Shown: positions 37,184 to 64,000 of the stretch, piece by piece
Layout of the letters: each line of letters begins with the position of its first letter
How positions within the stretch are numbered: position 1 is the stretch's first letter
Assembly: GCA_951394405.1 (NCBI GenBank)
Contig: OX596346.1
Location: forward strand, 186,001-250,000
DNA from: Coprinellus micaceus
Taxonomy: Eukaryota > Basidiomycota > Agaricomycetes > Agaricales > Psathyrellaceae
Direction of reading: 5' to 3'
DNA: 64,000 nt
Notes under the pieces: model-generated
Databases searched by the model: none
Seen by the model: only the letters and a program-made list of their open reading frames with translations
Told to the model about the DNA's origin: nothing
Position numbers and translations under genes: made by a program

Positions 37184-38886
37184 ATGGGCGCTTTCTCTGT
37201 TGTCGGTAAGCACTCGAAGCCATTTTGGTAGAGCCGAAGCTAAACCCAATACAGACTTGTTCCTGCAGCGAAGGCAGGATGTGAGCACGACTGGTGCGGG
37301 CGGCCCAACTGGAGGAGGCGCGACCGGAGGGGGAGGCACACCAACTGGAGGAGGTACGACTGGGGGGGCTACACCGCCAGGAGGAGGTACGACAGCTGCT
37401 GGTGACCCATCGCCAACAGGAGGCTCTACCAGCGCTGGCGACTCGCCGCCTGGAGGAGGTACTTCTGGTGGAACTGTAACTGACGCACCACCCACAGGAG
37501 GAGGGACCACACCACCATCCGGAGGGGGTACGACCGCACCTCCAGATGGAAGCACCCAAACTCCTCCAGGTGGTACGGTCACGCCTCCGGGAGGAGGAAC
37601 GGCAACTCTGTCGGATGGAGGGACAGCGGTCCCTTCAGGAGGGACGAATACCTCTGGAGCAGGAACGATTACGCCGACCGATGGAGGGTCGAACACCTCC
37701 GGGGCAGGAACGACCACACCGCCCGATGGAGGGGCAACGACACCAACGATCACTACGACAACTACTCCCAGCGGGGATACCACGACCACCCCCATCGCTT
37801 TGCCGGTTACGACGACAAGCAGAACCAGGACCTGGGACGTGACGAGCACCTGGTGCCCTCCCGAACTCTCGAAGGATCCACAGTACGCCGCTCAGCCGAC
37901 CTTCACTGGAACGACGGTCATCGATGGGACGTCCTGGGTCCAAACTACACTCGATGCCCCCCTGACCACGGTATACACGACGGAATCCTTGTGCGCCTCC
38001 ATACACCTTTTTCACTTGAACAATGTGCTGACTCACTGGATCTTTCGACATGCAGATACACGGAACATGGGCAAGCTATGACCAAGTATATTCCAGTGAC
38101 GACTGTGATTCCTCCAGGGACGGTCGTCATTCGGCACAACCTTGCTGTGGGCAAGAAATCGAGCAAGGTCCCGATTGTCGCAGGTGCTCTCGGCGGTACG
38201 TCTTGTAGTGCCGCTTCCCGTCCTCCCAGAAGATTGACGTTGTCTACCTAGGTGTCGCCGCCCTCATTCTTATCGGAGCTCTCGCCTTCTTCCTGGTCAA
38301 GCGTCGACGACGTCGCGAAGCAGCGAGAAACCTCCAAATCGATATCGACCCAACCACACCCACTCACAATCCTCCCTATCCCGGTCTTCCTCCATTGATG
38401 TCCGAAGCCACAGGCAATAGCCATCTCCTTCAACCTTCCACGACTGGATCGACGCACTATGGCGGTGTCGTCGGCGTTCAGGGCCGCCCGTCGATGGACA
38501 CAGCTTCCATGGGTGGTACTTCGTCGATGTACGCCTCGACCAACTACGGGCGTAGCACATCGCCCAACATCGTAGGCGCACAGCATATGCACTATCGATC
38601 ACCCTCTGCTGCGTCGGGTGGGAGCGTACCCGCACACCAGATCGCGCCTTCGATGGCTTCTCACATGTCTATGGCCCACTACCGAGCAGAGAGTGGGTCG
38701 ACTCCGATCGGGATTGTCCAGGAGGATGATCCTTTGCTCGGCCCGTTCAGCGATAGCAACCGCGTTCCGACACCGTCGAGTGTAATGCCGCTAGTACATG
38801 AGGATGCGGGGAGCGTTCGGAATGTGGAGGTGGGCGGGGTGTGGTCGCCTCCTGCGTACGATGGGGGAGGCTCATCGAGGATGTGA
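37184..38886 (+). CDS. Mucin-like single-pass membrane protein A, PPxY tail
   Basis: Exons 37184-37205, 37255-37990, 38056-38195 and 38252-38886 sum to 1533 nt, giving 510 residues. A 22 nt micro-exon (MGAFSVV) leads to DLFLQRRQD, a dibasic site followed by QD. Then comes a Gly/Thr/Pro stalk (about residues 17-220) built on GGGTT and TPPGGG units. The ectodomain end is conserved in the family: STWCPPEL, PTFTGTTVI, WVQTTLD, TTVYTTESLYTEHGQAMTKY, IPVTTVIPPGTVVIRHNLA. A transmembrane helix (GVAALILIGALAFFLV) is followed by KRRRRR. The tail carries YPGLPPLMSEA, DSNRVPTP, VHEDAGSV and a C-terminal SPPAY (PPxY). It should sit in the plasma membrane with its stalk in the wall; a sensor or anchor role is inference. 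No signal peptide is visible in this start. Confidence 0.85.
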
Positions 38887-39206
38887 GCCCTGGCCCTTGT
38901 CATGGCACAGTCCGTATTCCTGCTTTCGCAGTTCCCTCCGTTCACGACCCTGTATCGCAGCACGATTATTTATGTCATTTCACGCTCTTGGATGTCTGTT
39001 ACGTTTCACTGGGACTGTAAATCGGACATTGTTTATTCCTTAGTTATATCGTCGAGTATACCTTTGAATGAGGATGTATGTTGTCGGGTTAGATAGCCCG
39101 AAGCATTGTCCTTAATGTTGATCCTTGCATAGTCGTAAAGAATTTGCGTACAGATGATAGGCGCAGAAGCCAGTCTGAGCCACGCCTCATCCCAAAAACA
39201 CAATCT
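38887..39206. other. Convergent 3' spacer
   Basis: 320 bases between the stop of mucin-like gene A (+) and the stop of DUF6533 gene 3 (-). Nothing beyond AT-rich 3' flank is seen. Confidence 0.4.
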
Positions 39207-41094
39207 TCAAGCCCAGTCCTCGTCACCGACCTGTGTCGCCTCCCGCCCTCTCGATCCACTCACACGCGAAGAAGATCCGAAACGGACGGTAGACACTGAA
39301 GATCTCCCTAATCCGCCTGCCACTGCGCTGAGAGCGTAGCGATCGGAATCGGAGTGGACTTCGGTGCTGCTTCGTCCAGCCGAGCGACGAATGTTGAGGA
39401 GCATGTGGCAGGACTGCCCAGAGTTTGGGGAGGAGGTTTATTTTGGAAGTCTAAGGAGAAGGGATGGGGTACTCACGGAGACGGAGAATACGGCTTCGAA
39501 CCATCTGTTATCGGTGTTGAGAGGTGTAATTAAGCATATTGAGATCCTTGGGTAGAATTTAACTTACGGATTGGCTGGCAAAGTGTACAAGGACCCTTGG
39601 TAGAGGGTAGTGAACGCCTTCGCTATGTAACAGGCGGTTACACTGTAGTTCACCATGGGGAACACCGTCATTAATTAGTCTGGCGCGGTCTGAACGTTCC
39701 TCAACGTACATGGCGAAGTAGACCGTTCCGTCTCGCAGAAATACTGTAAGCAGTGGAGGAACCTGCAAGCGGCCTTGATTATCCTTCGATCTTGACCTGA
39801 CCCATTGATCAAGGATATCTGGCTTGAGGGAGCGTCTAAGCTTCACGAGCGTTGCGATCAGTATTCCGGCTAGATTTCAGAACGATCAATCCAATGCCCC
39901 CCAAATTACGTTCGCAGTCCAAGCGGAGTACTCACTTGAAATGACCAGGACGGGGACCCTAAGGTTTAATGGGGATTATGTGCGTGAGCCGCGAGGTATC
40001 AGTGCAGGGAGGAGATGTATATGCGTACCAGCCTGCGAGAACCTTCAGCATGTTCAGATTCAGGGCGTTCACCACACAGCCCGTCCACATCGGCACGGGG
40101 GAGGGGATGATATTCACGACCGCGACTTTCGTCACCCAGATAATGGTGTAGAGTTCAACTCCGAGTTGGCCTAGCTTTGCTTTAGTGCGAGACAAACTAA
40201 GGGAACGCAGCACAAGGGCTACGTACACGCGTAAAGTGCTGCGAAGATAGCCAGCGCTGGGAAGGGGGAAAGGGCTGAGAGAGCAAAGCGAATGCAAGAG
40301 TGGGGAAACTAACCTCTTCTGCTTTGCCCGTATAGCGCATATAGGCGAAGCATGAAGGTGAGGGATAGGGTAACCTCAAGTGAGTACATCCCGCCCCTGC
40401 AAAGCAATCTTAGATGGACACTTGTTGTTCGTAGTACGTTTTAGTCACTCACAGTGTCATCCACCACATATAGCTTTTGCAGCTTGATTTGAGGGAACGT
40501 GAGTGTGGTGCTCATTGAGGAAGTAGCCCAGCGCTTACTACTAAAGGCCGTTTTGGTAAGTACCGTATCGGTCTGTCACTGGCATCTATGGGATGGGTAC
40601 TCACATTTTCCGAGTGGTGGCTTCTATCAGAGACTAGAAGGGATCTGCAGCGCAGGAATTAGCTAATACTAAAGTTGAGTTGTGGGGTGCGGGCGCACGT
40701 TAGGACTCCGATCCCATAGTACCTGGAGAATAGGTAAAGGAATTTGGCCAAGCTCGGCCGAGCTCTGAACTCAATCTCCGTCAGACAAACACCGAGGGCA
40801 AGACGATCTTAGTAGTACTTACGGCCAAATATACCGGATCTGTGGGTTTGACACATCAGATAGAACCTTCGACGACACGACATGGGACATACCTCATCGT
40901 GAAGGTTATGCAGGAGGTCAAGGAGAAGGAATGTCAATGCAGCGGCTGGGAGAAGGCAAGGTCAGGATTTAAAATCAGGACCACGAATATAATCAGAGGT
41001 CAGATCGTGACGCCTCACCTTGGGAGTAGCCGGTTTGCAGATTGACCTCCACGGCCTTGATTAGGAGCTTGATCAAATCTTGCATAGAGCTCAT
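39207..41094 (-). CDS. DUF6533 multi-pass membrane protein 3
   Basis: The start is the ATG at 41094 (MSSMQDLIKLLIKAVEVNLQTGYSQ). The first exons match DUF6533 gene 1 closely in structure: LIKAVEVNLQT beside LFKAFEIQIHT, and the first donor follows the YSQ/WSQ codons in both. Further exons encode an AAALTFLLLDLLHN-type helix, a VRYIWP-type turn and a W-x-KFLYLFSRYYGI segment. Then come PPLLTVFLRDGTVYFAMYVE, FTTLYQGSLYTLPANP (compare FATIYEGSLYTLPTNA in gene 1), and the last exon MLLNIRRSAG ending EATQVGDEDWA at 39207. Seven or so helices are expected. The two TAAGCGCCCA sites 520-700 bases upstream of gene 1 and the one 475 bases upstream of this gene suggest shared control. Inner exon borders are approximate. 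Confidence 0.8.
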
Positions 41095-45055: not shown

Positions 45056-45598
45056 TCAAATACCCTGCTCGAGCTTCTGAAGAGCCTTCAACGCATCCTT
45101 CACCACGATCTCCATCGCACCACTTAGCGCATACTTCGTCCCCACTTGGTCCAGCTCGTCTACCCCAACCCACGCAAACGCATCGTGCTCCTCCGGGTTG
45201 AGATTAATCTCCACCCCACCGTCTACATTCCCCGCGCCGCCTTCAACCTCTACCAAGAAGTTAAACTGAACACTCTTCCCCTTCCCTGTCTCGTATTCGA
45301 ACCCGTCGAAGCACCCCAGGATGCCTGTCACCTCCAGCCCTGTCTCCTCCACCGTCTCCCTCACGACGGTGTCGATGAGCGTCGTGTCTTCACCTGCCTC
45401 AGATCCGCCCCCGGGGAGCTCGTAAAGTCCAGCGAACTCGGACTCGGATGCGGCGCGGCGGACGATGAGGATTTTGCGCGGCTGCGTTGGGGAGACGGTC
45501 GCTGCCCCGATTACGAGGCGTTTGGAGGGATATTGGGATTGAAGCTCGGCCAGCGGGATGGTGTAGGGCGTCGCGGAGGGGTGGATGGTTGGAGGCAT
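45056..45598 (-). CDS. Nudix hydrolase, 180 aa
   Basis: A single-exon frame with start ATG at 45598. The Nudix box lies at residues 63-90: PGGGSEAGE, then RETVEETGLEV, matching G-x5-E-x7-REUxEExGU except that nine residues instead of seven separate the first glutamate from RE. The metal-binding core RETVEET is intact. Family members hydrolyse nucleoside diphosphates linked to another moiety (oxidised nucleotides, NADH, ADP-sugars) in a Mg2+-dependent way. Size and the single domain fit a small MutT/ADP-ribose-type enzyme; the substrate cannot be read. No targeting signal is seen. It is divergent from the GH92 gene, with 619 bases between starts. Confidence 0.9.
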   Translation of the reverse strand: MPPTIHPSATPYTIPLAELQSQYPSKRLVIGAATVSPTQPRKILIVRRAASESEFAGLYELPGGGSEAGEDTTLIDTVVRETVEETGLEVTGILGCFDGFEYETGKGKSVQFNFLVEVEGGAGNVDGGVEINLNPEEHDAFAWVGVDELDQVGTKYALSGAMEIVVKDALKALQKLEQGI

Positions 45599-46217
45599 GA
45601 TTGACTGTGGTGGACAGAGGAGAAGATGGGCTGGAGAACGCCCAGCTAGGCTTCAGGGCTGTCCTGGTTTACCTTTCGGTGACTCGAGCTCGGCGATCAG
45701 CTCTTGGCTTCGTTGCGGAACCGAGGAGCACATGGACCATGTGGAGAGATGGGCGACTATAGAAGCTGGCTGGGGTCGCCCTACACCCCTCGCCGCCGCC
45801 ACGGCAAGTGCGTTCTTACTACGCCCCTGCAGGTTGTGGTCGGAAAGCCGTGACTATGATAACTACAACAAGTTTCTCACATGACCCTCTTGGAATGGCA
45901 TTTCTTCCTCCCATCCTTCCTTCGATTTCTCACATTTTGTTCTTTTTTCTCCGCGTGAGGTCAGAGACATGCTCTGCTGACCGTTCTCAAGCATGCTTGA
46001 CGTCGCATAGTGCGGTCATTCAGCTTCTCAACGACGAGAAGGCTGTCGGTTATCCTACTTCTTGACGAGAGGATTGTCGGAGATGTTGGGCTTTGAAGCG
46101 CAGGAATTTGAGAAGGAGCCATTTCGTGGTTCTCCAATGTCTTCTCTCTTTTCCCCTACCTTTTATATTTAACCTCGGTGTGCTGTACGATCTCTTTTCT
46201 CGTGCTTCGCTTTCACG
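45599..46217. other. Divergent promoter region, Nudix and GH92
   Basis: Shared 5' flank of two divergent genes. TATATTTAA at about 46164-46172 lies about 50 nt upstream of the GH92 ATG and is its probable TATA box. Confidence 0.5.
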
Positions 46218-49200
46218 ATGGGATGGTTGGCCCTCATTATCTCATTATTCACTTATCTGTTCGCCTTGTCCAGCGGCGTCCGAGCACAGCCTGGATTTGC
46301 GCCTCCCCCGAAGATAGCTGACCCTGCTAGCTATGTAAACCCATTTATCGGGACGATTAACGTTGGTCATGTCTTTCCTGGTACGTCTTCCCCACCGCTT
46401 ACCAGCGCAACCTCACTGATAATCACCTTTAGGTGCTACCCTCCCACACGGTATGATCAAGGCTGGAATGGATACTGACTCCCCTGGTAATGTGAGTTGG
46501 TTCTATACTACCCTAAGACAGTAGCCGACATTCACTACAAAAACCTGCATTCAGCACGCTGGCTACGACGGCGACCCAAAATACAACGTAACAGGGTTCT
46601 CCCAGCTCCATGACAGCGGCACCGGCGGGTCCATCCCCCTCTCCAACTTCAAGCTCTTCGCATATGCCTCGTGCTCATCTTTCGAGAAGTGCCCAAGCTC
46701 CATCGCCAATCGGAAGCTGCTGAGGAAGACGCTGGCGGATGGGAATCCGGACGATGCTGCTAGCCCGGGGTATTTCTCAACGAACCTCGTACGTCCTTTC
46801 CTTCCTTCGGAATAGGCCGTGGAGCTGAAGTTAGGGCCACACAAACAGACGAACGGGATTCGCGTGGAGCTCACGGCAACCCGGCGTACTGCCCTGCATC
46901 GGTACACCTTCCCTCCGGGAACCAAGCAACCACGCATCTTAGTCGACGTAACGAACGACGGGCAAAGGAGCTCAACGAAACCCCTGGTTACGATCGACAA
47001 CCTCGAGGGTAAGGGTACCGGGAGGATTGTCGGCGGAGCGGAATTTGCTGCTTCGTTTGGACCGGGGAGGTACCAGGCGTTTGTATGCGCGACGTTTCAG
47101 GGGGAGGGTTATGAGCTGGGGAAACCGACGGAGTACGGGATTTGGTTGAATAATTACCCGACGACGGGGACGACGAGCAGTACGCAGGTGTATATGGGTG
47201 AGTACCTGATGCATCCAGCGGGCCCAAGCCTGACAAGCGGTTCAATAGGATTTCAACCAGAGCTCGGCGGTATATTCACTTTCAAGCCAAATCCAACATC
47301 CGAAGTTACATCCATCCTCGCTAGGGTGGGCGTATCCTTCATATCTTCCGCACAAGCATGTAAGAACGCCGAAGAAGAGATCCCTGACTATGACTTTGGG
47401 AGAGTTCACAAGGAGGCAAGGGGGAGCTGGAATGAGTTGTTAGGGAGAGTGCAAGTCGACCCGACGGGGGTGGAGGAAGAAACCGTAGAGTTGTTTTATT
47501 CTTCGGTGAGTAGCGTCTAAGAGCATGGAGGGTGAGGGGCTGATTGTCTCGTTTTAGCTTTATAGGACGCATATTGCGCCTGCGGATTGTGAGTATCTTA
47601 CATCGCTTTCGTAGCGGTACCCACTCCACTGTATTGACGACTTGTTCCTAGATACCGGAGAAAATCCGAACTGGAAGTCTAGGGAGCCATATTACGACTC
47701 TCTGTACTGTAACGTGAGTCGGAATCGCATCTTCCCTTTACCTTCGTAGGCTGATAATGGTCGTGAAGTGGGATACCTACCGAACACTTTACCCTCTGAT
47801 GTCGCTTCACGACCCTGCCAGATTCGCCGATATTGTCCGTGGCATGATCGACATCCAGAAGCATGAAGGTTCGTCATACCGGTCTGCCCTACTTTAGTCC
47901 CGAGCTAATGTCACCTTCAGGATGGCTACCCGAATGCCGAGGTGCAACTGTTCAGCACTATATGCAAGGAGGAAGCAGTGCGTGCCTCCCGTTCCTGCTA
48001 TTCGTAAACGCCCTGCTCAGATTGTCGTTCGATAGACGCAGACCCGGTTCTGGGAGAGTTCTTCGTTAAGTACAGCAAGCAAGCTAGAGCTCTTGGAGTG
48101 TCGCCGGAGGACCTGTATACCGCACTGCTCGCAGACGCAGAGAAACAGCCTCAGAATTGGAATTTGCAGGGGAGGCAGGTGGATGTTTGGAAGTCGTTGG
48201 GTACGTCCGGCTCTCCACCTCTTGTGGCTACGGCGATTGGGTGTTGACGATATCAATTTAATAGGTTACATTGCACAGGATATGTTCTCCCCCGGCGGGG
48301 CGAACTCGAAGTGGGTCTCTAGAACTCTTGAAGTGAGTTATATCCCGCTCTTAGTTATTCGAGGCGGTTGATTGACGCTGGCTTGCATAGCATGCTTTCA
48401 ACGACTTCTCGATTGCTCAGGTCGCTAAGCTCCTGGGGAGGAAAGGGGATACGGCCAAGGTACGGTCGTACATTTCTTGCAATCTGAGGCATCGCTCTCA
48501 ATTCGGCGGCACAGTACATTAAGCGGGCGCAAAACTTCCTCAACGTCTGGAACCCGAACGTCACCATACCAGACGAGCCTAGTATTCAAGGAATGGTGCA
48601 GGCAAGGCCTTGGTGTTTTCTTCAGACTGCCGGGGTATCTGACACGTCGTTGCCTCTTGCAATAGCCTCGGTTCGCTGATGGGACATGGAACTATACCGA
48701 CCCCCGGCACTGCAGCATCCACGATCCGGAGAAGGCAACCTGCTTCCTGAATGCGGCCAGGAGGGACGGATTCTATGAAGGGTCTCCCATCGTAGTACGC
48801 CCTTCATCGATCTCATCCATTCGACCCTCACTAACCGTGTCCGTATTCAGTACTCCCAATACGTTCCTCAGGACACTGCAAAGCTGATAGAGCTTCAAGG
48901 CGGAGCTGACGCCTTTATTAAGCGATTGGACTACATCTTTACCCATGACTACTTCGAGTCGACGAATGAACCTTCTCAACAGATGCCCTTCATGTATCAC
49001 TACGCGAACCGACCTGGGCTGAGTACACAACGTTCACGACAGGTGTTGGCCCAGTTCTTCAATACGACGAAACATGGGCTGCCTGGAAACGATGGTACGT
49101 GGCCGTATTCGCCATTCAGAGCGTCCAAACCTAAACCACGGACCTCTTCCTCACAGATTCGGGTGCCATGGGGAGCTATGCCGCATTCTACCTGGCTGGA

Positions 49201-49579
49201 ATGTACCCGCTTCCAGCAACACGCCAATTGCTGTTGTCATCTCCGTTCTTCCCGCAGATATCGTTCTATAATCCAGTCTACCAGAAGACAACGACCATCA
49301 AGGTGTTAAACTTTGAAGCCAATCCGATCGATGGAACTGGGGGGAAGGTCTTCGTTCAAGTACGCCTTGCTAGTTGATACGACCAGGGAATTTGGCCTGA
49401 CGGGATCCTAGAACGTTACCATTGACGGCGAGCCCTGGCACTCTAGCTGTTACATTGAGTGGGAAGCGTTCGAGAAGGGGTCGGTCATCGAGTTGACGCT
49501 GACTGATGACATTAACGTTGGCTGCGGAGATGCGGAGGCAGCGCTACCACCATCTATTTCTACAGGAGGATACGATTAG
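46218..49579 (+). CDS. GH92 alpha-1,2-mannosidase, secreted
   Basis: The start is the ATG at 46218 with a signal peptide (MGWLALIISLFTYLFALSSGVRAQ). Many short exons run to the stop at 49577-49579. Order of family blocks: YVNPFIGT, ATLPHGMIKAGMDTDSPGN, AGYDGDPKYNVTGFSQLHDSGTGG, ASPGYFSTNL joined to TNGIRVELTATRRTALHRYTFP, RTHIAPADY, WDTYRTLYPLMSLHDP, GWLPECRG, VLGEFFVKY, RRDGFYEGSPIVYSQYVPQD, NEPSQQMPFMYHYANRPG, and the GH92 hallmark GND then DSGAMGSYAAFYLAGMYP near the C-terminus. GH92 enzymes are Ca2+-dependent, inverting exo-mannosidases acting on alpha-linked mannose of glycoproteins or wall mannan. The ending (INVGCGDAEAALPPSISTGGYD) is complete. All exons are open, so it looks functional. 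Confidence 0.93.
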
Positions 49580-49643: not shown

Positions 49644-51857
49644 CTACTTCCTTCGCGTAAATGTCAGATTCATTTTGCCTTGCACCGCAAACGACAACCC
49701 ATCCTGAGCAGCCGACTCAAGCACCCTCGTCGCATATTGCTCTCTCGTCTCCCCGTCCTCCAATGCCACGTCCAGCTTCCAATCCCTCAAAACGGATGCA
49801 AGGAAGGTCAGAGCTTCAGTCTGGGCGAACTTCCTCCCTATGCAGAGACGAGGACCGTATCCAAACACCGGGAGCTTGTAGTCAGAAAGGGTTTTCCACC
49901 TTGAGGGCACGAAGTCGTCGGGGCGGTCGAATGTATGTGGGTTTCGTACTGCAGCATGAGGATGTCAGAGAATTAGAGGGAAGGGGGAAGATAAACAAAG
50001 AATGGTCACTGACACATATTAATCATGTCCATGGCAATCTTGGTCCCTTTTCTGAGTACAACTCGAGCTGGTGCGGGGCGCTGGACCTCCACGATGGCAT
50101 CCTCCGTCAGGACCCGATTTAAGAGAGTGCCGGGGGCTAGTAAAGGCCAAGTTTCCATCAGCATCAACACGGTAGACCAGCTGTTTCCGACATACGATAT
50201 AACCTCGCTCCTTCAAGGAAGCATGCGTAGAGGTGCTTGAGCCGATCTAGCTGATCCAGAGACTAGGGACCATTGATGCCTGTGAGGGGGAGACGCACTT
50301 GTATATGACTCTAAATACTGACCGGCTCATCTTGGTCTCCAAGTTCGGAGAGCAATTCTTGGTATGCGAGTTCCTGCTCCTCCTGGTGAACGGCAAGCAA
50401 GGTGAGGGTCTCGGCCAGGACCATCGCAGTTGTTTCTGCCCATGCGGCCGTACTAATCAGTACCACCGAACGGGCGATTAGACTCTGTGAGACTCACCGT
50501 TGCCGGCAAACATGAGGAAGAATAGGTTACCAATCTAGGTAGGGTCAGTCGGTGGGGTTATGGAATAAAAATGAGGGGGGGTACGTGCCACTTCTTCGTC
50601 AGCGAGTGATTGCTTATCGAGGCCTTTATTCGCGACGATCAGTCGACTGAAGATGTCGTGTCTGTCTCCTAGTGCTCCCAGGTCGTTTGCATCATTTGTA
50701 TCTCGAGAATCTTCCAACTCTCGAACCCGTTCGGCGATAGCTTTGCGTGCAAAGCCCCGGAGAAGCGTGTCCCTCTCTGCCAGCTCTTTGAATCTATCAC
50801 ATCCTAGCGTTAGCGCAGTGCACTGCTGGAGGGGCTTGGGCACTCACGGGGACAGCTTGTAGGCCCATTCTGGGATAAGCACACGGGCTATAATGCTCGC
50901 GAGCCTGAACTCCTTCATAAGGGCGGATTGGATAGCTTGACCTTCCGGCTCACTTCCAGAGCTGGAGCTGACTGCGAATGCGTCGAGCTTCCAGGGTACT
51001 TGAAGACCAAACCCGCATCGTGCTATGAGTAGAAAGCCCAACTAATGCGAGAGGTTACATAGAGGTAAGCCAACGAAGACAGGTTACACAACAGTAGGCG
51101 GATACGCACCCTCCCTGTAATCGTCTTGACGTCGACCATGAACGAACTCTTATCAGATCTGGCATCATCCTCTAGCATTTCCTTGTACGCCGAACGGGTT
51201 TCATGGAGGACCGCCTCGTACCTGACACCATGTCAACGACACAGGAAGAATGCGGAATAAAGGCTCAACTCACGTCTTACGACCGAAGGCAGGGGTCATG
51301 ACGCGCCGATGACGCTTCCAGTCATCTTGACTAACCACGAAGATGTTTGGTCCCCAAGTTCTACAGAGACGGATGTTCAGCCTTGGCATGAAAATGTATG
51401 ACCTCGAGGCTTACTCACGCAACCCCAACGCTGTTGTCCTCATCTTTAATGAGCCCCTTTTCCGTTCCGATGAGCTGATTGGTAACCTCGGAGGAGCTGA
51501 TGTAACAACTTGGTTTTCCATGGATTATAGGGATGACTGAGATCATATCATGCGTCTTGTTGAAGTACGCCGTCTTGTGGATATCCCAGGTCCAATTGCT
51601 ATTGAGGTTCCACCAGCATGTAGGTACTAAGGCTCCGAAGAGTGACAATGGGGGGAAGAATGGTCTGTATCCCGGCATGTGGTCGAAATGCTACAAAACA
51701 GTCAACTTCTGGAACACCGGCGCTTTTAGAAGCAATGAGCGCCTACCTTCAGCATCTTCCAGTACCTCAGCGACAGGTGCACGACTGAGGCGCATACTAG
51801 AGTTAGGACTGCGGGAAAGATGAGAGCCTTGTCAGCAACCATCGCTGGTATGGACAT
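49644..51857 (-). CDS. Cytochrome P450 monooxygenase
   Basis: The start is the ATG at 51857 (MSIPAMVADKALIFPAVLTL, an N-terminal membrane anchor). About a dozen exons read on the minus strand. Marks in order: NIFVVSQDDWKRHRRVMTPAF (C-helix W-x3-R), DIFSRLIVANKG, the I-helix FAGN-ETTAMVLAETL across an intron, LEGARLYPPGTLLNR (K-helix E-x2-R), NPHTFDRPDDFVPSRW, and the haem loop FGYGPRLCIGRKF with its cysteine ligand. The last exon ends at 49644 with NLTFTRRK. All signature residues are present, so it should be an active ER-anchored monooxygenase. The overall architecture and PERF-like FVPSRW are those of fungal class-II P450s, which depend on a reductase encoded elsewhere. Substrate unknown. 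It converges on the GH92 gene with 64 bases between stops. Confidence 0.92.
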
Positions 51858-51888
51858 GATGGGAGAAAGCAAAGGTCCACGTCGGTGG

Positions 51889-52032: not shown

Positions 52033-52417
52033 CCAGTCGCTGGTGGGTTCAAGTGGCTCCCAACGATTATAGACAGCCTTGGGGATTCAGGAAATAGAAA
52101 CAGCAGCGCAAGCGAAATATCATGTGAATCAAACCTAGGAATTCCATTTGAATGCAAAATATAGATGATAGGAAGAGGAGCGGGTCGAGTCTCGACGGAG
52201 TCGGGGGGAAGTAAGAAACGTTCGGGGACAGCCCGCATTGATGCGGCGACATAGCTAAAAGATGAGCGTATTCCGGAGTGAAGAGTCCGAGCAAGCATTG
52301 TGTCCAAGAAATTTTAGGGGTGAAATATGGGTGAGGCCATGATCATCATAAACGGCTCGTAAATAGGATCAAAGAAACCCAGGAAAAGCAGAGGTCGGAA
52401 GAGACACGCGGTCTATC

Positions 52418-54808
52418 TTAAAACCTCGAAGAACTCCCATAACGGTATTGAGGAGGTGTCCCACCACCACGGACGTCGAGGTCCCGAATGCTACCTCCAT
52501 CTTCGTGAACGAACACGCCCTGGGGGGTCGGCACTCGGTTCGAGTCCGCGAAAGGCCCTCCATCTTCTTCGTGAACCATCCCCATGTTGGCTGATGTTGT
52601 TGCTGTGCCAGCTCCTCCTCGTCGGTTGGGCTGGAACAAGGACGAAGCAGAAGGGGTTTGGTGTACGGATGCTTCTCCCGACGCAGCAGATGGCGTTCGG
52701 GTGTGGGTTACACCCATAGGGATGGCCGACGGGTTGGGTAGGTTGCTAGTGGAAGCGTACATCGACGAGGAGCCACCAGAGAAAGTGACATCCACTGAGG
52801 TCGGAGTCGCTGAGTGATACCTCGTGGGGGCGGCGTGCTGGTTCGCAGCAACGACTCCACCGTAGCCCGTCGAGGAACCTCCAACGATTGGGCCTTGGGC
52901 ATGGTCCTGGACCTCAGACATCGACGGCGGAAGACCAGGGTAGCGAGAACGGATGGGTTCCGGTGAGCCTATACTGAGATCGACTTCCGGTTGTTCACGA
53001 CGCCGATGACGTCTCAAGATGAAGTAGACAAAGATACCAAGAAGTATCAAAGCGGCCACTCCTGTGAAAACTAATTGGTAGACTGGACTCGCAGATAAGT
53101 AAACGCACATACCTCCCAGAACGCCTGCAATGATTGGGACCTTGTTCACCTTCCTAACCTCTGCTAGGTTGTGCCTGATGACTACCGTTCCCGGGGGAAT
53201 GACGGTCGTCACTGGGATGTACTTCGTCATAGCCTGACCATGTTCGGTGTATCTGGATATTTAAGTCCAAGTGGTCAGTGTGTGATCAAGCATACAGAGA
53301 ATGAAAGCACTATCTCACAAAGATTGAGAGGTATAGATTGTCGTCAATGGGTAATCCAGAGTAGTCTGAACCCAAGTCTGCCCCGCAATGATGGTCGTCC
53401 CCGTAAAGGTCGGTGTCTCAACAAATTCCGCATTAGTCGTCAGCTCGGGTGGAGCCCAGGTACTGGTGGGGATCCAAGTGCTCATGAACGAGGAAGACCA
53501 CGTTTCGTCGGATTGGAACGGAATCGTGACTGCTTCGGCAGTTCCGGATGACGGACGATCTGGGGTAGTAGCGAGGGGCAGAGGGTCATTTGAGCTTGTC
53601 ACTGGGGGAGCTATTCCAGCGGTGGTTGCGGGAGGCGTTTCGTCTGGGTGGCTGGCTGTCAGAGGAGGTGAGGCTGAGGGGGTTACCATCGGGGAAGTGC
53701 CTTCTGGGATGGTCACGATGGGTGTCGTACCTTCAGAACTCGGTACTGGGGGTGGTGCCATGGAAGTAGTTGCACCATCGGGCGTTGGTGAGCCCCCTCC
53801 TTCGGTTGGTGTAGGTTGACCTTCGGTTGGTGTCGGCGAACTCACCCCACCAGTAGGTGTGGGCGAAGCTTCGGTTGGGGTCGGTGAGCCCCCTCCACCA
53901 GTGGTCGTGGGTGATCCTCCACTGCTGGGTTGAGGCGATCCACCACCCTCTGTGGGTGTGGTTCCTCCGCTCGTGGGCGTGGGCGATCCTCCACCTTCTG
54001 TGGGTGTGGGCGACTCCCCTCCGCTAGTAGGAGTAGGCGTATCTCCTCCACTCGTTGGCGTCGGCAACCCTCCCCCATTTGTCGGCGTTGGCGACCCTCC
54101 ACCATCAGTCGGTGTGGGCGAAGCTTCGGTTGGGGTCGGTGAGCCCCCTCCGCCAGTGGGTGTCGGTGATCCTCCACTGCTGGGTTGAGGCGATCCACCA
54201 CCCTCTGTGGGTGTGGGCGATGTTCCTCCGGCCGTGGGCGTGGGCGACCCTCCCCCGCTAGGAGTAGGCGTATCTCCTCCACTCGTCGGCGTCGGAGACC
54301 CTCCCCCGTCCGTTGGCGTTGGTGACCCTCCACCTTCAGTCGGTGTTGGCGAACCCCCTCCAGTTGGTGTTGGAGGTCCAGTTCCTCCTCCATCGGTGGG
54401 AGTCGGCGGAGCTTCCAGAGTGGGCGTGGGCGATCCACCACCACCTGTTGGGGTCTGCCCTCCACTTCCTCCTCCGTCTGTTGGTGTAGGAGGGGCTTCT
54501 CCCCCTGTCGGGGTCGGTGTGGGAGGGATATCTCCTCCACCTGTCGGTGTTGGTGTTGGAGGCGTGCCTCCTCCATCCGTCGGGGTGGGCGGGGTCTCCC
54601 CTCCTCCTGTAGGTGTTGGCGGCGCTCCTCCAGTAGGAGTGGGAGGGGTTCCTCCCCCATCTGTGGGCGTGGGAGGAGCCCCACCACCACCACCACCACC
54701 ACCCTCATCCTGCCGTCGTTCGAGTCCAAAGTCTATTCGAAAAAATTCAACAAAACGGATCGCCTAGTGAGCTGCTGCCAACGTACCTTCCAGTAAGAGA
54801 ACACCCAT
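52418..54808 (-). CDS. Mucin-like single-pass membrane protein B, PPxY tail
   Basis: Exons 54787-54808, 53319-54732, 53113-53252 and 52418-53061 sum to 2220 nt, giving 739 residues. The micro-exon (22 nt, MGVLLLE) and the third exon (140 nt) have exactly the same lengths as in protein A. After DFGLERRQD comes a stalk of about 300 residues made of (GGG)(S/T)PTPT(D/E/S) repeats, then a less repetitive Thr/Pro region. The conserved end follows: STWIPTSTWAPPEL, PTFTGTTII, WVQTTLD, TTIYTSQSLYTEHGQAMTKY, IPVTTVIPPGTVVIRHNLA. The membrane helix (GVAALILLGIFVYFIL) precedes RRHRRRE. The tail has YPGLPPSMSE, FADSNRVPTP, VFVHEDGGSI and the C-terminal TPPQY (PPxY), then GSSSRF. It was probably duplicated from a common ancestor with A and C. 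Confidence 0.9.
53750..54715 (-). repeat. In-frame coding minisatellite of gene B
   Basis: Tandem units of about 24-36 bases encoding GGGSPTPT-type repeats (PTPTDGG, PTPTEGG, PTPTSGG). Unit length varies in multiples of three, so expansion keeps the frame. The array is long and near-identical in parts, so allele length should differ between strains. Confidence 0.75.
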
Positions 54809-56420: not shown

Positions 56421-58728
56421 TCACCACGAGTCCCGAATGAGGTCGGACGCTCGTTCGGCGAGTATATACACTGGTGCTTGGGTATTCGCTGAAGGAATGT
56501 AGGGCTTGGCGTAAAATCGTCAAGATAGACCCCAAAGTTATAGATCAAGTACTCACAAACACAGACGCATCCACGACCCTTATTCCATCAGCGCCCTTCA
56601 GCCGCAACTCCCCATCCACGACGCCTTCCTTCGAATTCTTCGCAGACATTCGAGCCGTCCCAACCGGATGCAAGAAGGTAATCGCAGTCTCCCGAACTAC
56701 CTTCTCGAATTCTTCATCAGATAGTACGTCGGGGTCTGGGCCTGCAAACCCCGTAATATATCCGTCCCAGGCGGGTCCTGAATTCCATCGCTTCATGATA
56801 CGAACGGATTCCTTGAGAGCTTCGAGGTCGAAGGGGTGCGAGAGTAGGTTGAGGTCGATGGCTGGAACATCGAATGGATCGCTTGACTTCAATTTCAAAG
56901 AACCACCTTGACCGAAAGTCAGCGGTTGGGCATTAGAGAGACTGGGCTTCTGCACTGACGGGAGTAGGGCGTCACCAGCCCAACGCTCTGACCTCCGGCG
57001 GGCTGTAATGAACCGGTGGGTACACCACGTTGTATTCCCCAAGAAGGGCATAAATCGGGGCTCACCTCGACACTAGCCTGGAAATGCGGAGTTCGAGGCC
57101 CAGTAGAAGGATCCTCGTAGGTTTCGAACACTGACCAGTTCGTCGGCAGCCTCGTAAACAGGTTTTGTTGACCGAAACGCTCGGTGAACGGCCCGGTTCT
57201 ATTTTCGACCCACATCTTCATGGCGACACCGTCTGGTATTCTATCACAAGTTAGCAATATTTAGACGGTACATGGCATATATCGGACTCACGCAGTCACA
57301 TTGAGAGGTACGGTCGTCCATCTCATTGGAATCGCGACGTGTTCCATGAGGTTCCTGCCCACGTCTGGAATGTTGAGCACGGAAGGTATCCCGAGTTGCT
57401 TCAGTTCAGTCGCGTTCCCGATCCCAGAGTTGAGCAGGATTTGAGCACTGCCGATGACACCCCCGGATAGGATCAGCTCTTTCTGGGCGCGGATGGTCTT
57501 CCTCACCCCTAGAGACGAAGGTCAGTTTTTGATGATGTCTCTTGAATCAAATGCTCACCCCCTGCGCGAGGAGCTATCTCAACCGTCGTTATAAGAGGCT
57601 TTGTCCTCGCACGAGGCGTTGGAAGGACACGGGTAATGTACGTATTCAGTAGAATTGTTAGGTTCGGCCTCTCTCGCACGTCAGGTGGAAGGTATGCCGT
57701 CGCCGCACTGCTTCGCTCCCCGTGCCCAATGGTAGACTGCTTAAATCCTGGGGTCGAGGCGTGAGTCCATGTGCCAGTCAAGAGTCGACACCAGACGTAC
57801 CTAAGCCGATGAAAGTCCCAGCATTCCAGTCTAGTGCAAAAGGGAAGTCTTTCTGCAACTCCGTATTCCTGATAGCGCGCTGCTGGACCTCAGTTGGGCC
57901 GCTCCAAGGAAGCGATGTCAGGACCTTCCCCTTGTATCCGTGTGCCTTGGGGTCGTATTGACCTGTGGGATCGCGACCTCCAGCCGGCGGAGTCCACCTT
58001 TCGCTCTAAATGGAAGTCGGTGAGCATCTGGAAAGGCGGCCACAACGCAAACGTACCCTCATAATGTACGGCCACAGTGCCTTCCAGCTCCATCGTCGAT
58101 CGCCTGTCACTCGACCCCAATTATCGTAGTCGTCTGCGGAGCCCCTCGTATATACCATAGCATCTGAGCGACGTTCGTTAGCAAAGGGGGACATTGGCGT
58201 TGAACGCCGTAGGTCACGCACTGACTGAACTACTGCCTCCCAATACATGCCCCCGTGGAATCGCCAACGTACGACCATTCAGCCCAGCCATCGGCTCTGA
58301 GGTATAATTCCATCTCCACTGCCCCGCTGTCGACCACGCCGGGATCGTGAGGTTTAGAACGCCGAGGTTACTGTGATGGTTTACGAGAGTCGATCAGGTT
58401 GGTCGACCGGGGAATAAGCGTAGATATAGACTAGACTTACTCAGACCCCGCCTCGATGACGAGCACATTGAATCTCTTCACTTCTAAGAGACGACTCGCA
58501 AGTACGCAACCTGCCGTTCCACCTGGACGCAGACACGATACATGTTAGTCAAACCGAAGTGCAAGGTTTGTGTATGAGCTGATCCTCGAGGAAATGCTCA
58601 CCGCCTGCTATGATGAAGTCGAATGGCCCGAACTCGGTGGGGAGTTCGTCGATCCCATAATAAACCTTTCCGAGTGCGCCCTGGCACGCCAATAGCGCAG
58701 CAATACAGAGGAAATGGAGAATACACAT
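56421..58728 (-). CDS. GMC oxidoreductase, aryl-alcohol-oxidase-like
   Basis: The start is the ATG at 58728 with a signal peptide (MCILHFLCIAALLACQGALG). Exons give, in order: FDFIIAGG joined to GTAGCVLASRL (FAD-binding GxGxxG), VLVIEAGSE, LAIPRGHVLGGSSSVN joined to AMVYTRGSADDYDNW, ERPNLTILLNTYI, KELILSGGVIGSAQILLNSGIG, VGRNLMEH, then AITFLHPVGTARM with the first active-site histidine. The last exon is PYIPSANTQAPVYILAERASDLIRDSW, joined after DASVF by a GTGAGT intron. The second active-site position is Asn (SAN), so the pair is His/Asn, as in choline-oxidase-like members. It is a secreted flavoenzyme expected to oxidise alcohols to aldehydes with H2O2 release, a common partner of peroxidases in wood decay. 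Substrate unproven. Confidence 0.93.
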
Positions 58729-59440
58729 ATCAAGGTGAGGAGATGCGCTGTCCAGAATGGACGGGGCTTATACGCAGATCCCAGGAAGTGCTTCGGCACA
58801 ACCGTGGCTCGACGGATGGCCCCGTGCGCCATATACCACCTGGCACAGGGCCAAGCAAGCCCCAGAAGTTCTCAAGAAACCAGAAGAAGCGGCCGCCCTT
58901 GAGAAAATAGCCGGTAGATCCAGCAGTTTGCGTCCTAATTGAATACCCACAGGTCAGACGCCTACCCACTCGGAGCTCCTGGCATCTGTGTGAGATGAAT
59001 CGCCCGAAAACGCTGGGTCGAAAGGGAATAAGCAGTCAACCGAAGAACAAGAGTCACACAAAATGGGGAAAAGGGAGAAAGAGCGGGCGTCAATCATGGT
59101 CGGTCGGGGGTTCCGGTATTTGGCTCGCGTTGGATTCGCTTGGAACAGAGGACGATGACAAACTTGGGCGATTAAGCGCCCGTGGTTCACTGGCGATCAT
59201 GATTAAACACAAGATTTAGTGTGGAGGCAATAGAGCGATCATGACAGCACGTAAGAGAAGGGGAAGGGAGTAAAGTTGTCCGTAATATGTCATCCAAAAC
59301 ATGAAAGCGCATGAGCAGTCGTAAAAAGGAATGTCAAAGCAAATAACATCATCCACTCGAATGACCAAAATAACGCGAAGCCAGGCAGGAGGTCCAAGAA
59401 AAGAAGGTTCGAGAAGAGGCATAAAACTGACAGGGGAGGA
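58729..59440. other. Intergenic stretch upstream of the GMC gene
   Basis: 712 bases with the GMC promoter and the 3' flank of mucin-like gene C. It holds a near-palindromic TGGGCGATTAAGCGCCC at 59161-59180, a variant of the decamer seen elsewhere. No gene is visible. Confidence 0.4.
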
Positions 59441-61634
59441 TCAATCAGGGCTCAGACGAACCTTACGATCACCAGTCGGGGGGACGTAGGATGATGCACT
59501 CCCATCCTGGAGATCGGGCACGCTCCCGCCATCTTGGTGAACATACACACCCGCTGGAGCCGGCACGTAATTGTTGTCCGCGAACGGGTCCCGGTATTCT
59601 TCTTGAACCACGTCCATCCCGACAGATGGACCACCCCCACCGCGATTGGGCTGATAATGTGAAGCAATCGACGACTCTGGGTACACAGAACCGGTAGACG
59701 CCGCGGATGGCGACCGATAGTGAGTTGGACCTGCAATGTTTGGCGAACCGCTACGAAGATTGCTGGCTGAGGCGTACATCGACGATGCCTCTGTCGCGGC
59801 GGCTGTCGTGCCTCGGCTTGGGGATCGATACGTCACGGCCATGGCGTTTTGAGCGGCACCACCCCCGCCAAAGCCAGTTGAACTCCCCATTCCTCCGTAG
59901 CCAGCCGAGTTACCCGCACCTCCGTAGCCAGTCGAAACTCCGCCGATTGTTGAACCAGTGGCCTGAGCATGAACCTGCGTGTTGCCCTGCGCTTCAGACA
60001 TCAAGGGAGGGAGTCCTGGGTAGCGATCCGGTCGGACAGGTTCTGGTGAAGCGATAGGGACGGGTTCAGGTGGGGCTTGTTGTCGGCGGCGCTGGCGTCT
60101 CAGAACGAAGAAGATAAGGATACCGAGGAGGATTAATCCAGCAGCACCTGTATTGAAGAAATCAGCATATCGAACTTGTATTAAAGGGCGTCATTCATAC
60201 CACCAAGAGCTCCTGCGATAATAGGGACTTTGTTCGACTTTTGCGCGACGGCCAGATTATGTCTGATAACGACAGTACCAGGAGGGAGCACGGTCGTCAC
60301 CGGAATGTACTTCGTCATCGCCTGTCCACGTTCCGTATACCTAAAAGTCGAAAACATTCGCATTGAGCGGATGGAACGCGACAAGGAGGGAAACACGTAC
60401 AAGGATTCTGAGGTATACACAGTCGTGAATGGACGATCGAGCGTCGTCTGAACCCAAGTTTGCCCTTCGATCACAGTCGTCCCGGTGAACGTCGGCGCAG
60501 CAGCAAGGTTTGCATCCTTCGTAAGCTCAGGTGGGCACCAAGTAGTCGTCGGGATCCAAGTGCTCATCACACTCGCAGGCCACGTTTCTTCAGGATAGGT
60601 TGTAATCTGTCGAGTAGTCGTCACTCCTACTGCCACTGGGGTGACTGTGTTGCCCGCCGTGATTGTCGGTGTGTAATCTCCTGGTGTCACAGTTGGGGTG
60701 TTATCTCCAGCGGTAATGGTAGGAGTTCCTCCAGGACTTGAAACAGTATCCGTCGGGGGCGTACCTCCTGGGCTTGACATGGTGACCGTTGGGAGTGTCC
60801 CTCCTGGGCTTGAGATGGTCGGGGGAGTGCCTTCAGGACCCGTGACGGTAGGTGTACCTCCTGGTACAGTGTCAGTCGGGGGCGTTCCTTCGGGGCCAGT
60901 CGGGGTAACAGTCGACAGCGTACCTGCAGGGCTTGTGTCTGTAGGTGGCGTGCCGACAGGACCCGTCACTGTGTCCGTTGGGAGCGTACCCACAGGGCCA
61001 GTATCCGTGGGGGGTGTTACTGTGTTTGTCGGTGGTGTACCTGCTGGTCCAGTAACTGTCGGGGGAGTTCCACCCGGGCCAGTGTCAGTTGGCGGTGGGT
61101 CTTGTACGGCAGTAATTGTGGGAGGAGGCGTACCAACAGGACCGGTGACGGTGGGCGTCGCACCACCACCACCTCCGCCTCCCCCAGTCTGACTGCCCCC
61201 ACCACCAGCGGTCGCCCCTCCCCCACCTCCACCTTCACCACCAGCCGTCACTCCACCTCCTCCGCCAGTTGCTCCTCCACCTCCACCAGTTGCTCCCCCT
61301 CCACCACCGCCGCCTGTTGCGCCGCCCCCTCCACCTTCACCACCCCCGCCAGTGGCACCACCACCCCCACCAACGCCACCTCCTCCAGTCGCCCCTCCAC
61401 CTCCTCCGGTCGCCCCTCCACCTCCTCCAGTCGCCCCTCCACCCCCTCCGCCGCCAGTCTCCCCACCCCCTCCGCCAGCGCCACCACCCGTACCTCCCCC
61501 ACCAGTTCCGCCACCAGTCCCTCCCTCATCCTGACGTTTGTCGAATATCCAATCTGTACGAAATCGAGTCAGTTATTTCAGGTCACTTCACGTGTCGAAC
61601 CGAACGTACCTTCCACTATAGAAAAAGCGCCCAT
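59441..61634 (-). CDS. Mucin-like single-pass membrane protein C
   Basis: Exons 61610-61634, 60401-61553, 60201-60340 and 59441-60147 sum to 2025 nt, giving 674 residues. The micro-exon is 25 nt (MGAFSIVE); the third exon is again 140 nt. DWIFDKRQDEG carries the basic-QD site. The stalk has two repeat zones: an N-terminal glycine array (GGGGGAT units) and then TVTGPxGTPPTDT units. The shared ectodomain end follows: STWIPTTTWCPPEL, PTFTGTTVI, GQTWVQTTLD, TTVYTSESLYTERGQAMTKY, IPVTTVLPPGTVVIRHNLA. The membrane helix is GLILLGILIFFVL, followed by RRQRRRQQ. The tail has YPGLPPLMSEAQGN, DPFADNNYVPAP, GVYVHQDGGSVPDL and ends YVPPTGDRKVRLSPD, so the PPxY of A and B is missing. Confidence 0.9.
60650..61510 (-). 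repeat. Two in-frame coding repeat arrays of gene C
   Basis: About 61250-61510 encodes GGGGGAT-type glycine repeats. About 60650-61150 encodes TVTGPxGTPPTDT-type repeats. Units keep the reading frame. The two arrays differ from each other and from gene B, though all sit at the same place in the protein. Confidence 0.75.
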
Positions 61635-63555
61635 CGTAGCTTAGGACGCAGAACCCAAGAGAAACTCGATGTGAAGGAAAGTAGGAGTGAAGGGAAGAAA
61701 AGGACGAGTTTGGCGAAACTCGTCGTATCACCCCAATTGAGGGCCTTTCCAAAACCGAAGGTTGGCGGTGTGACACTTTGCCTGCAGGGGCACCCCAATG
61801 CCTGGAACGAATTTGGGTGGGCGGCACGAGGCTAGGGTTCATTCTGCTCAAACCCATTCGTTTTTACGAATATCCTGATTGGCCCGAGGCGGACTGGGGA
61901 CTGACCGCACACGAACGAAAGGGCGTGTGGCTGGGCTTGGTTCCCGAAGGCGTAATCGAGGCTATGCGAATTGACGAGCTGGGTGGAATGGGTTAGTTCT
62001 TCGGGTCTTGTCCAAATGAAATCCGCTGATAGGCGTACCTTTGACTCGGGACGCCGTTTCGTTGGCTTTCTCGAGGCCCATGGACACGACTGAGCGCTCG
62101 AATCAACGGCAATAAAGGGAAGACTTGGCTAGATTGTACCTGATCGAGACGATTCTGGTCAGACGATCATGTCCTCTCCACAGATGCGCTTAAATTAAGA
62201 CATCCCAATCCTTTGGGAAAGAAGCGTCTACATGGAGTGACAAACGCAGGGGATTGCGTCCCGCTGGTTGAGAGCAGGGAAAAACACTCGTTCATCGTTC
62301 TATCCCGCCGGGAAGAATGTTGAGTTCCGCCTGTCGCTTCAGCAGTCTGGCGACTCCTCGAGGCCTTCGCTTAGGGTATTGAGGCTCAATTGAGGCTGTC
62401 ATCCGTCCATCCGGTGAACCGATAACGGGAGTGTGTACCCCATCGATGGATTCGAGGCTATACGAAATGAATCCAGGAACACGGGTCAATATGAGCACAA
62501 CAACCAAAGAGGGATGAACGCCGGAATGCACGCACCTCAAGGCCTCATTCCTGGCCCTTCCTCCTTGGCACCCTAAATGGATCCATCCGGCAGACGTCGT
62601 TGCCACACCTCGAGTGCTCTCTTCTTGTTGTGTTCGGTCGACGACGATTCAGACTTCCATTTGCCGCCCAAGTGCAGAGCAGTCTGGGGAGCACTGTGTT
62701 GTGTACAGACCTGAGCTGGGTGAGAACGTATGCGTGTTCTCTGTTGTTTGTGAGGCACGCTTCCCATCTGCGAAGACCTGCTCGTCTTCGTAGCCGTCGT
62801 CGTCGTGGAACGTGTTGAACGCGGGACGCCGGCGATCGGCGTTCGTGGAAACCGAGGTAGGCTTAGTCAGTCAGAGATAAGATAAGATCTCTGCGACCTT
62901 AAGCGCCCAAAGCTGTAGGGCTCGCAGTCACCCCCACGAGCACTTCGCTTGACTAAACTGACCGCTTGACAGGCCACGTTATACAGCTGTCTTGTCAGAG
63001 TCTCTCGAAATGATACTGCTCGAACCCCAGGATAGACCGGTTAGGGAACTAGAGTTTGTCTGATGCTGATCAAAGGCGAATGAGTCTTCTGCAGCTACAT
63101 GCATGTAGAATAAGCGGGATATATACATGGCGTATCATATATGCCGACCGAAAGTCCATTTGAGTCCGTGGAATTTGTAAAGAGCACCGGGGATATGGAG
63201 GATCGTACAACCAGAACACCAGAGGCCGCGGAAAACGAAGAGTACTGTCTGCGATAGAGGGGGACAGGGGTAAGCCATACGGAGGGAAACATATCGAATG
63301 AGAGTAGTCCATCAAATGGAGTCCGAAGTCCGAGAAGAAGAGCTGAAGCAACGAAGAGGATCACGGTCCAACAACGAAATATAAACACACTGGCAGCTAA
63401 ACGAGGGGTCCACAGGAATACCATAGGTTCAAACTGTCTTGAGAGTTCGAGAAACGCGGGAAGGGAAAAAATACGGAAGGCCTATCGAACGAAATCATCC
63501 AGACGTACCAGCACCCACGAACCGACAACAAGTGTCAAAAAGGCACCACAAGCGA
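61635..63555. other. Intergenic stretch between genes C and D
   Basis: 1.9 kb. It holds a double GATA site (GAGATAAGATAAGAT at 62874-62888) and the decamer TAAGCGCCCA at 62900-62909, only 12 bases further on. No gene is visible. Confidence 0.45.
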
Positions 63556-64000
63556 TTACTGCGACGGTGCAGGTACGCGATACCTATCATGGAAGGGATT
63601 CATCCTATCCACGTCCCTGAGCGTCGCAGCACTCGCATGTCCACCTAACATACCTCCCATATATCCCGGATCGCCCCTCATCTCTGACATGGCGATCCGA
63701 GCATCTGGGTAATGTTGAACGCTAGCTCTACCCGCTGCTGGTACGATGACAGCGCGACGTCGCCGGCGCTTAAGGACCAGGAACGTGACCAGGAGGATCA
63801 GTGCGACGACAAAGATACCTGTTCGCGTGGATTAGTTAGAACAGTATTCAGATACTTCCAAGGAATTTTCCGTGAGAGCACATACCACCAAACGCGCCAG
63901 CTACAATGGGAGCTTTGTTCACTTTCTTCTGCACCGCGATAGGCCGATAGACGAGGTCGCCTGGGGGAATGACAGTCGTCACAGGAACGTACTTTGTGAG
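63556..64000 (-). CDS. Mucin-like membrane protein D, cut by window edge
   Basis: The last part of a fourth family member; the stop is at 63556-63558, and the gene runs on past 64000. The upstream exon gives LTKYVPVTTVIPPGDLVYRP, IAVQKKVNKAPIVAGAFG; this matches the shared MTKYIPVTTVIPPGTVVIRH ... VPIIAGALG block but lacks the usual VVIRHNLA. After an intron the membrane helix (GIFVVALILLVTFLVL) precedes KRRRRR. The tail is short: YPDARIAMSEMRG, then NPFHDRYRVPAPSQ, which matches the DPFADxNRVPxP block of the paralogs and then stops. So the VHEDGGS block and any PPxY are missing. The stalk and N-terminus are outside the window. Confidence 0.85.

Follow-up and report, generated by a model that had tools for sequence, protein, structure and literature searches.

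Four clustered paralogues of Coprinellus micaceus encode predicted mucin-like single-pass surface proteins with a candidate endocytic tail signal

A 64,000-nucleotide (nt) stretch of Coprinellus micaceus DNA (contig OX596346.1, positions 186,001 to 250,000; G000:C13:186001-250000 in our numbering, here called the window) was analyzed within a genome of 50.3 Mb in 17 contigs. As judged from the sequence, four genes of the window, A to D, are one clustered paralogous family of single-pass membrane proteins. An earlier note, made from the letters of the window, had proposed one modular family, and the agreement of the four genes in exons, intron phases, a conserved block before the membrane helix, and the helix itself bears that proposal out. 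The gene models, the homology of the copies, the one predicted helix, the composition of the stalk, the conservation of the pre-helix block, and the motifs of the tail are established at the level of the predicted proteins. We propose, in a reading that we hold to be evenly balanced between right and wrong, that A to D are lineage-restricted, endocytically recycled single-pass surface stalk proteins that reach an N-out orientation without a signal peptide, perhaps with a role in wall contact or wall stress.

Splice models were built by enumerating frame-open GT..AG introns and taking the top-scoring model. Gene A lies on the plus strand (37184-38886), and gene B (52418-54808), gene C (59441-61634), and gene D (63556 to past the window end) lie on the minus strand. 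Each has four exons, and the products are 510, 739, 674, and 532 amino acids (aa), respectively. Gene D was completed with adjoining contig sequence (G000:C13:248501-258000), which placed its start codon at C13:251352. The gene limits agree with those of the earlier note, including the run of D off the window from 63556. All introns of the four genes are GT..AG and 49 to 67 nt long, with phases 1, 2, 1 in four of four genes; intron 3 of gene B had two tied acceptors, and the one chosen preserves the GG-V junction of gene A. Exon 1 is a micro-exon of 22 to 25 nt in each gene, and exon 3 is 140 nt in A, B, and C, as had been observed, and 137 nt in D. Both strands of 110 kb were searched for ATG plus 16 to 33 nt, an intron, and [KR]R[QN], and the four matches were A to D; the pattern was picked after A to D had been seen, and 2.5 kb were counted twice where loci overlapped the window.

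In gene A, the splice model and upstream scan placed a 22-nt exon 1 at 37184..37205 (MGAFSVV plus 1 nt). Exon 2 (37255..37990) carries a dibasic RRQD site (37269-37280), the stalk (37281-37841), and the pre-helix block from 37842 onward; exon 3 (38056..38195) holds the end of the block and the start of the membrane helix; and exon 4 (38252..38886) holds the helix, KRRRRR, and the tail. Gene B, on the minus strand, begins with a 22-nt exon (54787..54808; MGVLLLE plus 1 nt), followed by exon 2 (53319..54732) with RRQD (54707-54718), a 413-aa stalk, and the start of the block, exon 3 (53113..53252), and exon 4 (52418..53061) with the helix, RRHRRR, and the tail. Gene C, also on the minus strand, begins with a 25-nt exon (61610..61634; MGAFSIVE plus 1 nt), followed by exon 2 (60401..61553) with KRQD (61528-61539), a 326-aa stalk, and the start of the block, exon 3 (60201..60340), and exon 4 (59441..60147) with the helix, RRQRRR, and the tail. 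Exons 1 and 2 of minus-strand gene D lie outside the window (G000:C13:251331-251352 and 250087-251263), the 137-nt exon 3 enters it at 63886..64000 with 22 nt past the window end, and exon 4 (63556..63818) encodes the helix, KRRRRR, and the tail.

The predicted proteins share one plan. A start of 12 to 13 residues (MGAFSVVDLFLQ, MGVLLLEDFGLE, MGAFSIVEDWIFD, and MSALPMEDLAIE in A, B, C, and D) is followed by the dibasic site (RRNN in D) and a stalk rich in G, T, P, and S, of 187 aa in A and 359 aa in D. Before the helix, S plus T make up 25 to 32%, P 12 to 20%, and G 16 to 28% of residues; the earlier term "mucin-like" thus holds as a statement of composition, with G also abundant. Tandem repeats with periods of 24 to 54 nt were found in the gene B stalk by a scan that covered the stalks of A, B, and C. 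The pre-helix block is 89 aa in A, B, and C and 63 aa in D, where 25 of the 26 missing residues fall in one gap spanning the PTFTGTT and WVQ segments. Each protein has a single membrane helix of 23 aa (best 19-residue Kyte-Doolittle [KD] mean, 2.6 to 2.9), the basic run directly follows it, and the tail, basic run included, is 195 (A), 198 (B), 219 (C), and 71 (D) aa. The list of shared motifs drawn up earlier applies to A, B, and C but not fully to D, which has no PTFTGTT or WVQ, has RRNN for RRQD, has YPDARIAMSE for YPGLPP-MSE, and lacks the VHEDGGS block. Between paralogues, the block differed by a nonsynonymous rate (dN) of 0.12 to 0.25 with the synonymous rate (dS) near saturation, and dN/dS was 0.07 to 0.13 in the block (five of six pairs with finite dS) and 0.25 to 0.63 in the tail. 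AlphaFold2 predicted beta strands in the block for the Candolleomyces homologues P0003 and P0010, in low-confidence models built from shallow alignments (7 and 9 rows). We conclude that the sequence comparisons point strongly to constraint on the pre-helix block.

The starts of A to D do not resemble signal peptides by hydropathy, which was the measure used. The maximal 12-residue KD hydropathy near the N-terminus was 1.42 (A), 1.07 (B), 1.12 (C), and 0.55 (D); it was 0.16 from the first Met and 0.07 from the second Met of the Ephemerocybe angulata homologue P0002 and 2.25 to 2.40 in four control proteins of the C. micaceus genome, presumed from inspection by eye to carry signal peptides. By this comparison, none of the five complete N-termini (A to D and P0002) has a signal-peptide-like core, and P0002, read from its second Met, has the same start pattern (MCPSSFE-EFRIQRRQD). 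No hydrophobic first exon was found upstream in a scan of 1.5 kb that allowed one intron and GT[AG]nG donors: in-phase candidates, micro-exons included, numbered 3, 3, 2, and 4 for A to D and reached at most 1.42, and for gene D two upstream candidates (0.87) outscored the micro-exon. Because neither a signal-like N-terminus nor an upstream hydrophobic exon was seen, the membrane helix is the sole candidate targeting signal that we see. In the nearest six residues, counted by eye, the charge was +2 before the helix and +6, +5, +5, and +6 after it in A to D, and the more positive charge directly after the helix favors an N-out orientation. Sec61 handles helices that adjoin long translocated segments, according to a passage of PMC13220792. 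We conclude that the predicted proteins suggest a likely N-out orientation of A to D without a signal peptide.

The tails share several short motifs, predicted to lie on the cytosolic side. Gene A has YPGLPPLMSE (38377-38406), GPFSD (38740-38754), VHEDAGS (38794-38814), and PPAY (38848-38859) on the plus strand. On the minus strand, gene B has YPGLPPSMSE (52913-52942), GPFAD (52544-52558), VHEDGGS (52490-52510), and PPQY (52445-52456); gene C has YPGLPPLMSE (59993-60022), DPFAD (59576-59590), and VHQDGGS (59522-59542); and the 71-aa tail of gene D has NPFHD (63586-63600) and YRVPAP near its C-terminus. The previously named block DxNRVPxP forms the downstream half of an adjoining PFxD motif that had gone unnamed. 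In an alignment of 13 sequences, only P383, F384, and P393 were invariant, and S308, D386, V417, H420, D422, and G424 were conserved in at least 90%; P383, F384, and D386 are the P, F, and D of PFxD, and P393 lies downstream of it. The PF contexts in relatives are NPFSN (P0001), NPFID (P0002), DPFHD and DPFIE (P0003), SPFDD (P0007), LPFRN, GPFAD, and DPFVD (P0010), and DPFDP and DPFIG (P0011). The tails of Candolleomyces P0003, P0004, and P0010 carry a second PF motif, and in P0003 and P0004 the VHEDGGSI block, too, recurs close to the C-terminus.

Motif counts were compared with shuffled tails for 10 nonredundant tails, which left out P0004, P0005, P0006, P0008, P0009, P0012, and P0013, all of them near-duplicates or fragments. 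Exact NPFxD occurred in 2 of the 10 (D and E. angulata P0002; shuffle mean, 0.006), [ND]PFxD in 5 (C, P0003, and P0010 having DPFxD; mean, 0.014), and PFx[DE] in 8 (mean, 0.35), and in each case none of 5,000 shuffles reached the observed count. PPxY, a ligand of WW domains such as those of Rsp5, occurred in 5 tails (mean, 0.66; 1 of 5,000 shuffles reached the observed count). According to passages of PMC7889276, NPFX(1,2)D marks proteins for endocytosis and is recognized by the SHD1 domain of Sla1, DPFxD, NPF, and DPF are less effective, the motif occurs in NPFxD cargoes generally (e.g., Drs2, Dnf1, and DnfA), and Aspergillus nidulans DnfA with a mutated motif is no longer polarized. Moreover, a passage of PMC6685044, citing Piao et al. 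2007, states that Wsc1 is bound by Sla1 SHD1 and directed into endocytosis. A motif of this documented set is present in D and C and not in A or B, and the genome has one locus with SHD1 (PF03983; expect value [E], 9.1e-31).

Searches of the C. micaceus genome with A by tblastn recovered A itself (best E, 3.6e-28), B (7.0e-23), C (2.5e-21), and D (3.4e-13), together with six lower-scoring matches at other places (E, 8e-6 to 8e-4), all of which cover part of the helix region. Those six (L011-L015) are apparently other single-pass proteins with a helix and a basic run. Three protein searches matched 4 of 2,123, 7 of 7,997, and 9 of 7,994 scored candidates (E of at most 0.01, 0.01, and 0.1), for 13 distinct homologues in total, of which P0012 and P0013 were marginal (E, 0.018 and 0.086) yet carry the tail blocks. 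P0005 and B are almost identical, with branch lengths of 0.0045 and 0.0033 in the tree. Seven homologues have a named source: Coprinellus aureogranulatus (two), Ephemerocybe angulata (one), Candolleomyces eurysporus (three), and C. aberdarensis (one, placed by genus). These seven hypothetical proteins, identified by sequence (NMY22_g1050, NMY22_g15466, DFP72DRAFT_1072536, H1R20_g1716/g1490/g1619, and EST38_g12205), are all from Psathyrellaceae and lack family names, and four are annotated as partial; the other six come from the sources ena, jgi, and lgn and have no species label. P0001 (C. aureogranulatus NMY22_g1050) is annotated as HAM1_N plus a family member in one protein, probably two genes merged in annotation. 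The earlier idea of a basidiomycete family is therefore narrowed, within the reach of a word-based search in which absence outside Psathyrellaceae is not provable. Our best reading of these matches is that the family is lineage restricted, with named sources so far in Psathyrellaceae only.

Pfam scans of the exon open reading frames (ORFs) of A, B, and C and of spliced A and D gave no family over the cutoff, no enzymatic or signaling domain, and no WSC domain (PF01822), as the earlier note had remarked of WSC cysteines. Its suggestion of a separate family also stood, in that the protein searches made gave no match of the pre-helix block to a characterized family, and PDB matches centered on membrane segments. 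The eight WSC matches of the genome are all on contigs other than that of the family (C8, four; C11, two; C5, one; C1, one), and the C8 and C11 loci look like genes for proteins with several WSC domains, not for one-WSC sensors. At the C8 locus (G000:C8:2603479-2604818), four consecutive WSC matches are joined by T/S-rich linkers. The Mid2 profile (PF04478) stayed below the cutoff, its best genome match (E, 0.17) being at another place on C13.

In the proposed mechanism, the N-terminal part would lie outside the cell as a G/T/P/S-rich stalk of 187 to 413 aa plus, in A to C, an 89-aa collar (the pre-helix block) with predicted beta strands. There would be no cleavable signal peptide, and the membrane helix would itself serve as a type III (N-out) reverse signal-anchor. 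The stalk would carry O-linked mannose and reach across the inner wall, and the [KR]RQD site might be trimmed en route by a Kex2-type protease, KR and RR being Kex2 sites. The cytosolic tail would present an NPFxD-type signal (NPFHD in D, DPFAD in C, and GPFxD in A and B) to a Sla1-type SHD1 adaptor, such that at least D and C would be internalized and recycled to growth sites, as proposed for NPFxD cargoes, and the PPxY of A and B would serve to bring in Rsp5-type ligases. The copies would most likely be polarized surface proteins that act in wall contact or wall stress, each with its own stalk length and strength of uptake; by analogy, wall-stress sensing is plausible. A bolder form of this account seems unlikely to us: lineage-specific wall-contact sensors lacking a signal peptide, with a reverse signal-anchor exporting a part of 292 to 518 aa, Kex2-type trimming, NPFxD-driven recycling at the hyphal tip, and four paralogues each adjusted through its stalk length and tag strength (NPFxD, DPFxD, and GPFxD).

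Several observations weigh against the recycled N-out proposal. Over the 15 residues preceding the helix, the net charge is +4 (A), +3 (C), +4 (D), and +3 (B, by eye), in conflict with the negative-outside bias of human N-out anchors described in a passage of PMC13220792. Windows of this length are positive on both sides of the helix, and B has only +2 in the 15 residues after it (by eye), so the 15-residue windows are reversed in B. Moving an N-terminal part of 292 to 518 aa across the membrane without a signal peptide is moreover demanding. As for the tails, they are homologous, so the shuffles indicate a kept motif rather than independent gains, and PFxD was chosen post hoc, after the tails were read. 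The PF columns are not invariant in an alignment of seven sequences, in which the short tail of D is placed elsewhere; P0001, P0007, and P0011 also lack [ND]PFxD; and the GPFxD of A and B is outside the set documented in the passages of PMC7889276, so that the signal there may be weak or absent. As for the block, dS of the paralogue pairs is near saturation, the low-confidence structure models come from Candolleomyces relatives rather than A to D, and most of the collar is missing from E. angulata P0002.

Other explanations account for parts of the same evidence. A to D could be a passive glycocalyx or spacer, in which variable stalks form a surface coat and the tail controls turnover only, through NPFxD and PPxY. 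Stalks that vary in length (187 to 413 aa) and repeats beside a kept pre-helix block and PFxD would fit such a coat, as would the lack of enzymatic or signaling domains in the Pfam scans; the A to C tails, however, keep YPGLPP-MSE, SSMYAS, and VHEDGGS, seemingly beyond the needs of turnover, and we regard the spacer as possible though somewhat unlikely. More doubtful are true wall-integrity sensors, functional equivalents of Wsc and Mid2 in which tension on the stalk would be relayed by way of the helix to Rom2-Rho1-PKC. That role is suggested by an overall plan like the one described in passages of PMC9148135 (an S/T-rich outer part, one membrane region, and a tail), by an NPFxD-type signal in some tails, as in Wsc1, and by a genome in which six of the eight WSC matches fall in the two multi-WSC-like loci. 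Against it stand the lack of a WSC domain, of a Mid2 match over the cutoff, and of an evident signal peptide in A to D, and the fact that NPFxD is, in the passages of PMC7889276, a mark of endocytic cargo in general (Drs2, Dnf1, and DnfA) and not specific to sensors.

The N-terminus and the orientation allow two further readings. If a signal-peptide exon was overlooked, A to D would be type I proteins of an ordinary signaling-mucin-like sort. The fungal signaling mucins described in passages of PMC9148135 have a signal peptide, a mucin-like domain, a single helix, and a short intracellular tail, and the gene models of A to D are predictions from sequence; the micro-exon start nevertheless agrees in four of four paralogues and in E. 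angulata, and the upstream scan, within its limits of distance, intron number, and donor form, gave no hydrophobic first exon, which makes an overlooked exon improbable. We consider a type II orientation, with the G/P/T-rich part cytosolic and the tail outside, more improbable still. It would agree with the lack of a signal peptide evident by hydropathy and with a net charge of +3 to +4 over the 15 residues that precede the helix, which in B exceeds the after-helix side, but it would put the 5 to 6 basic residues directly after the helix outside and NPFxD and PPxY on the wrong side. P/T/S-rich repeat regions are, moreover, typical of the outer membrane face.

With the recycled N-out proposal, the family becomes a set of testable candidates for surface proteins of Psathyrellaceae, for which uptake and recycling are explicitly predicted; if the topology is true, mucin-like proteins would here be exported by an unusual route. 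Passages of PMC9148135 describe variation of Wsc- and Mid-type sensors from one fungal species to another, and the basidiomycete passages there concern Rho1 rather than surface sensors. Between A and B, exon matches to GH92 (alpha-mannosidase) were found at 46173-49309 on the plus strand, with a hydrophobic, signal-peptide-like N-terminus; a mannan-trimming enzyme beside mucin-like genes is possible and perhaps a coincidence. Also near or between the family genes, on the minus strand, are a NUDIX ORF (45056-45652), a cytochrome P450 exon (49644-49964), and a GMC oxidoreductase exon (56545-57072).

Wsc and Mid sensors have a signal peptide. The likeness to Wsc/Mid2 sensors drawn in the earlier note holds for the overall plan, but no signal peptide is evident and PF04478 is below the cutoff; some tails do carry an NPFxD-type signal, as does Wsc1. 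Because the defining features tested (a WSC domain, PF04478, and a signal peptide, the last by hydropathy only) were not found, A to D were not assigned to Wsc, Mid2, or Msb2. Like the Wsc-type proteins (yeast Wsc1-3 and A. nidulans WscA/B), A to D have an S/T-rich part predicted to be outside, one helix, a tail and, in some copies, an NPFxD-type signal; unlike them, they have no WSC cysteine domain, no signal peptide evident by hydropathy, and no sequence match that was found. With the Mid type (Mid2 and Mtl1) they share the lack of a WSC domain, the S/T-rich predicted outer part, and one helix, and differ in scoring below the PF04478 cutoff and in having no evident signal peptide. With signaling mucins (Msb2) they share one helix and a repeat stalk that is mucin-like by composition, whereas a signal peptide is not evident, no sequence match was found, and the tails of A to C, at about 200 aa, are not short (71 aa in D). 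With the NPFxD/Sla1 cargoes (Wsc1, Drs2, Dnf1, and A. nidulans DnfA), the family shares NPFxD in D and P0002 and DPFxD in C, P0003, and P0010, whereas A and B have GPFxD. What appears new in A to D, as far as the sequences tell, is that no named family was found, the narrow known distribution, and the unusual start; single-pass surface proteins that are mucin-like and bear an endocytic signal are, as a general kind, already known.

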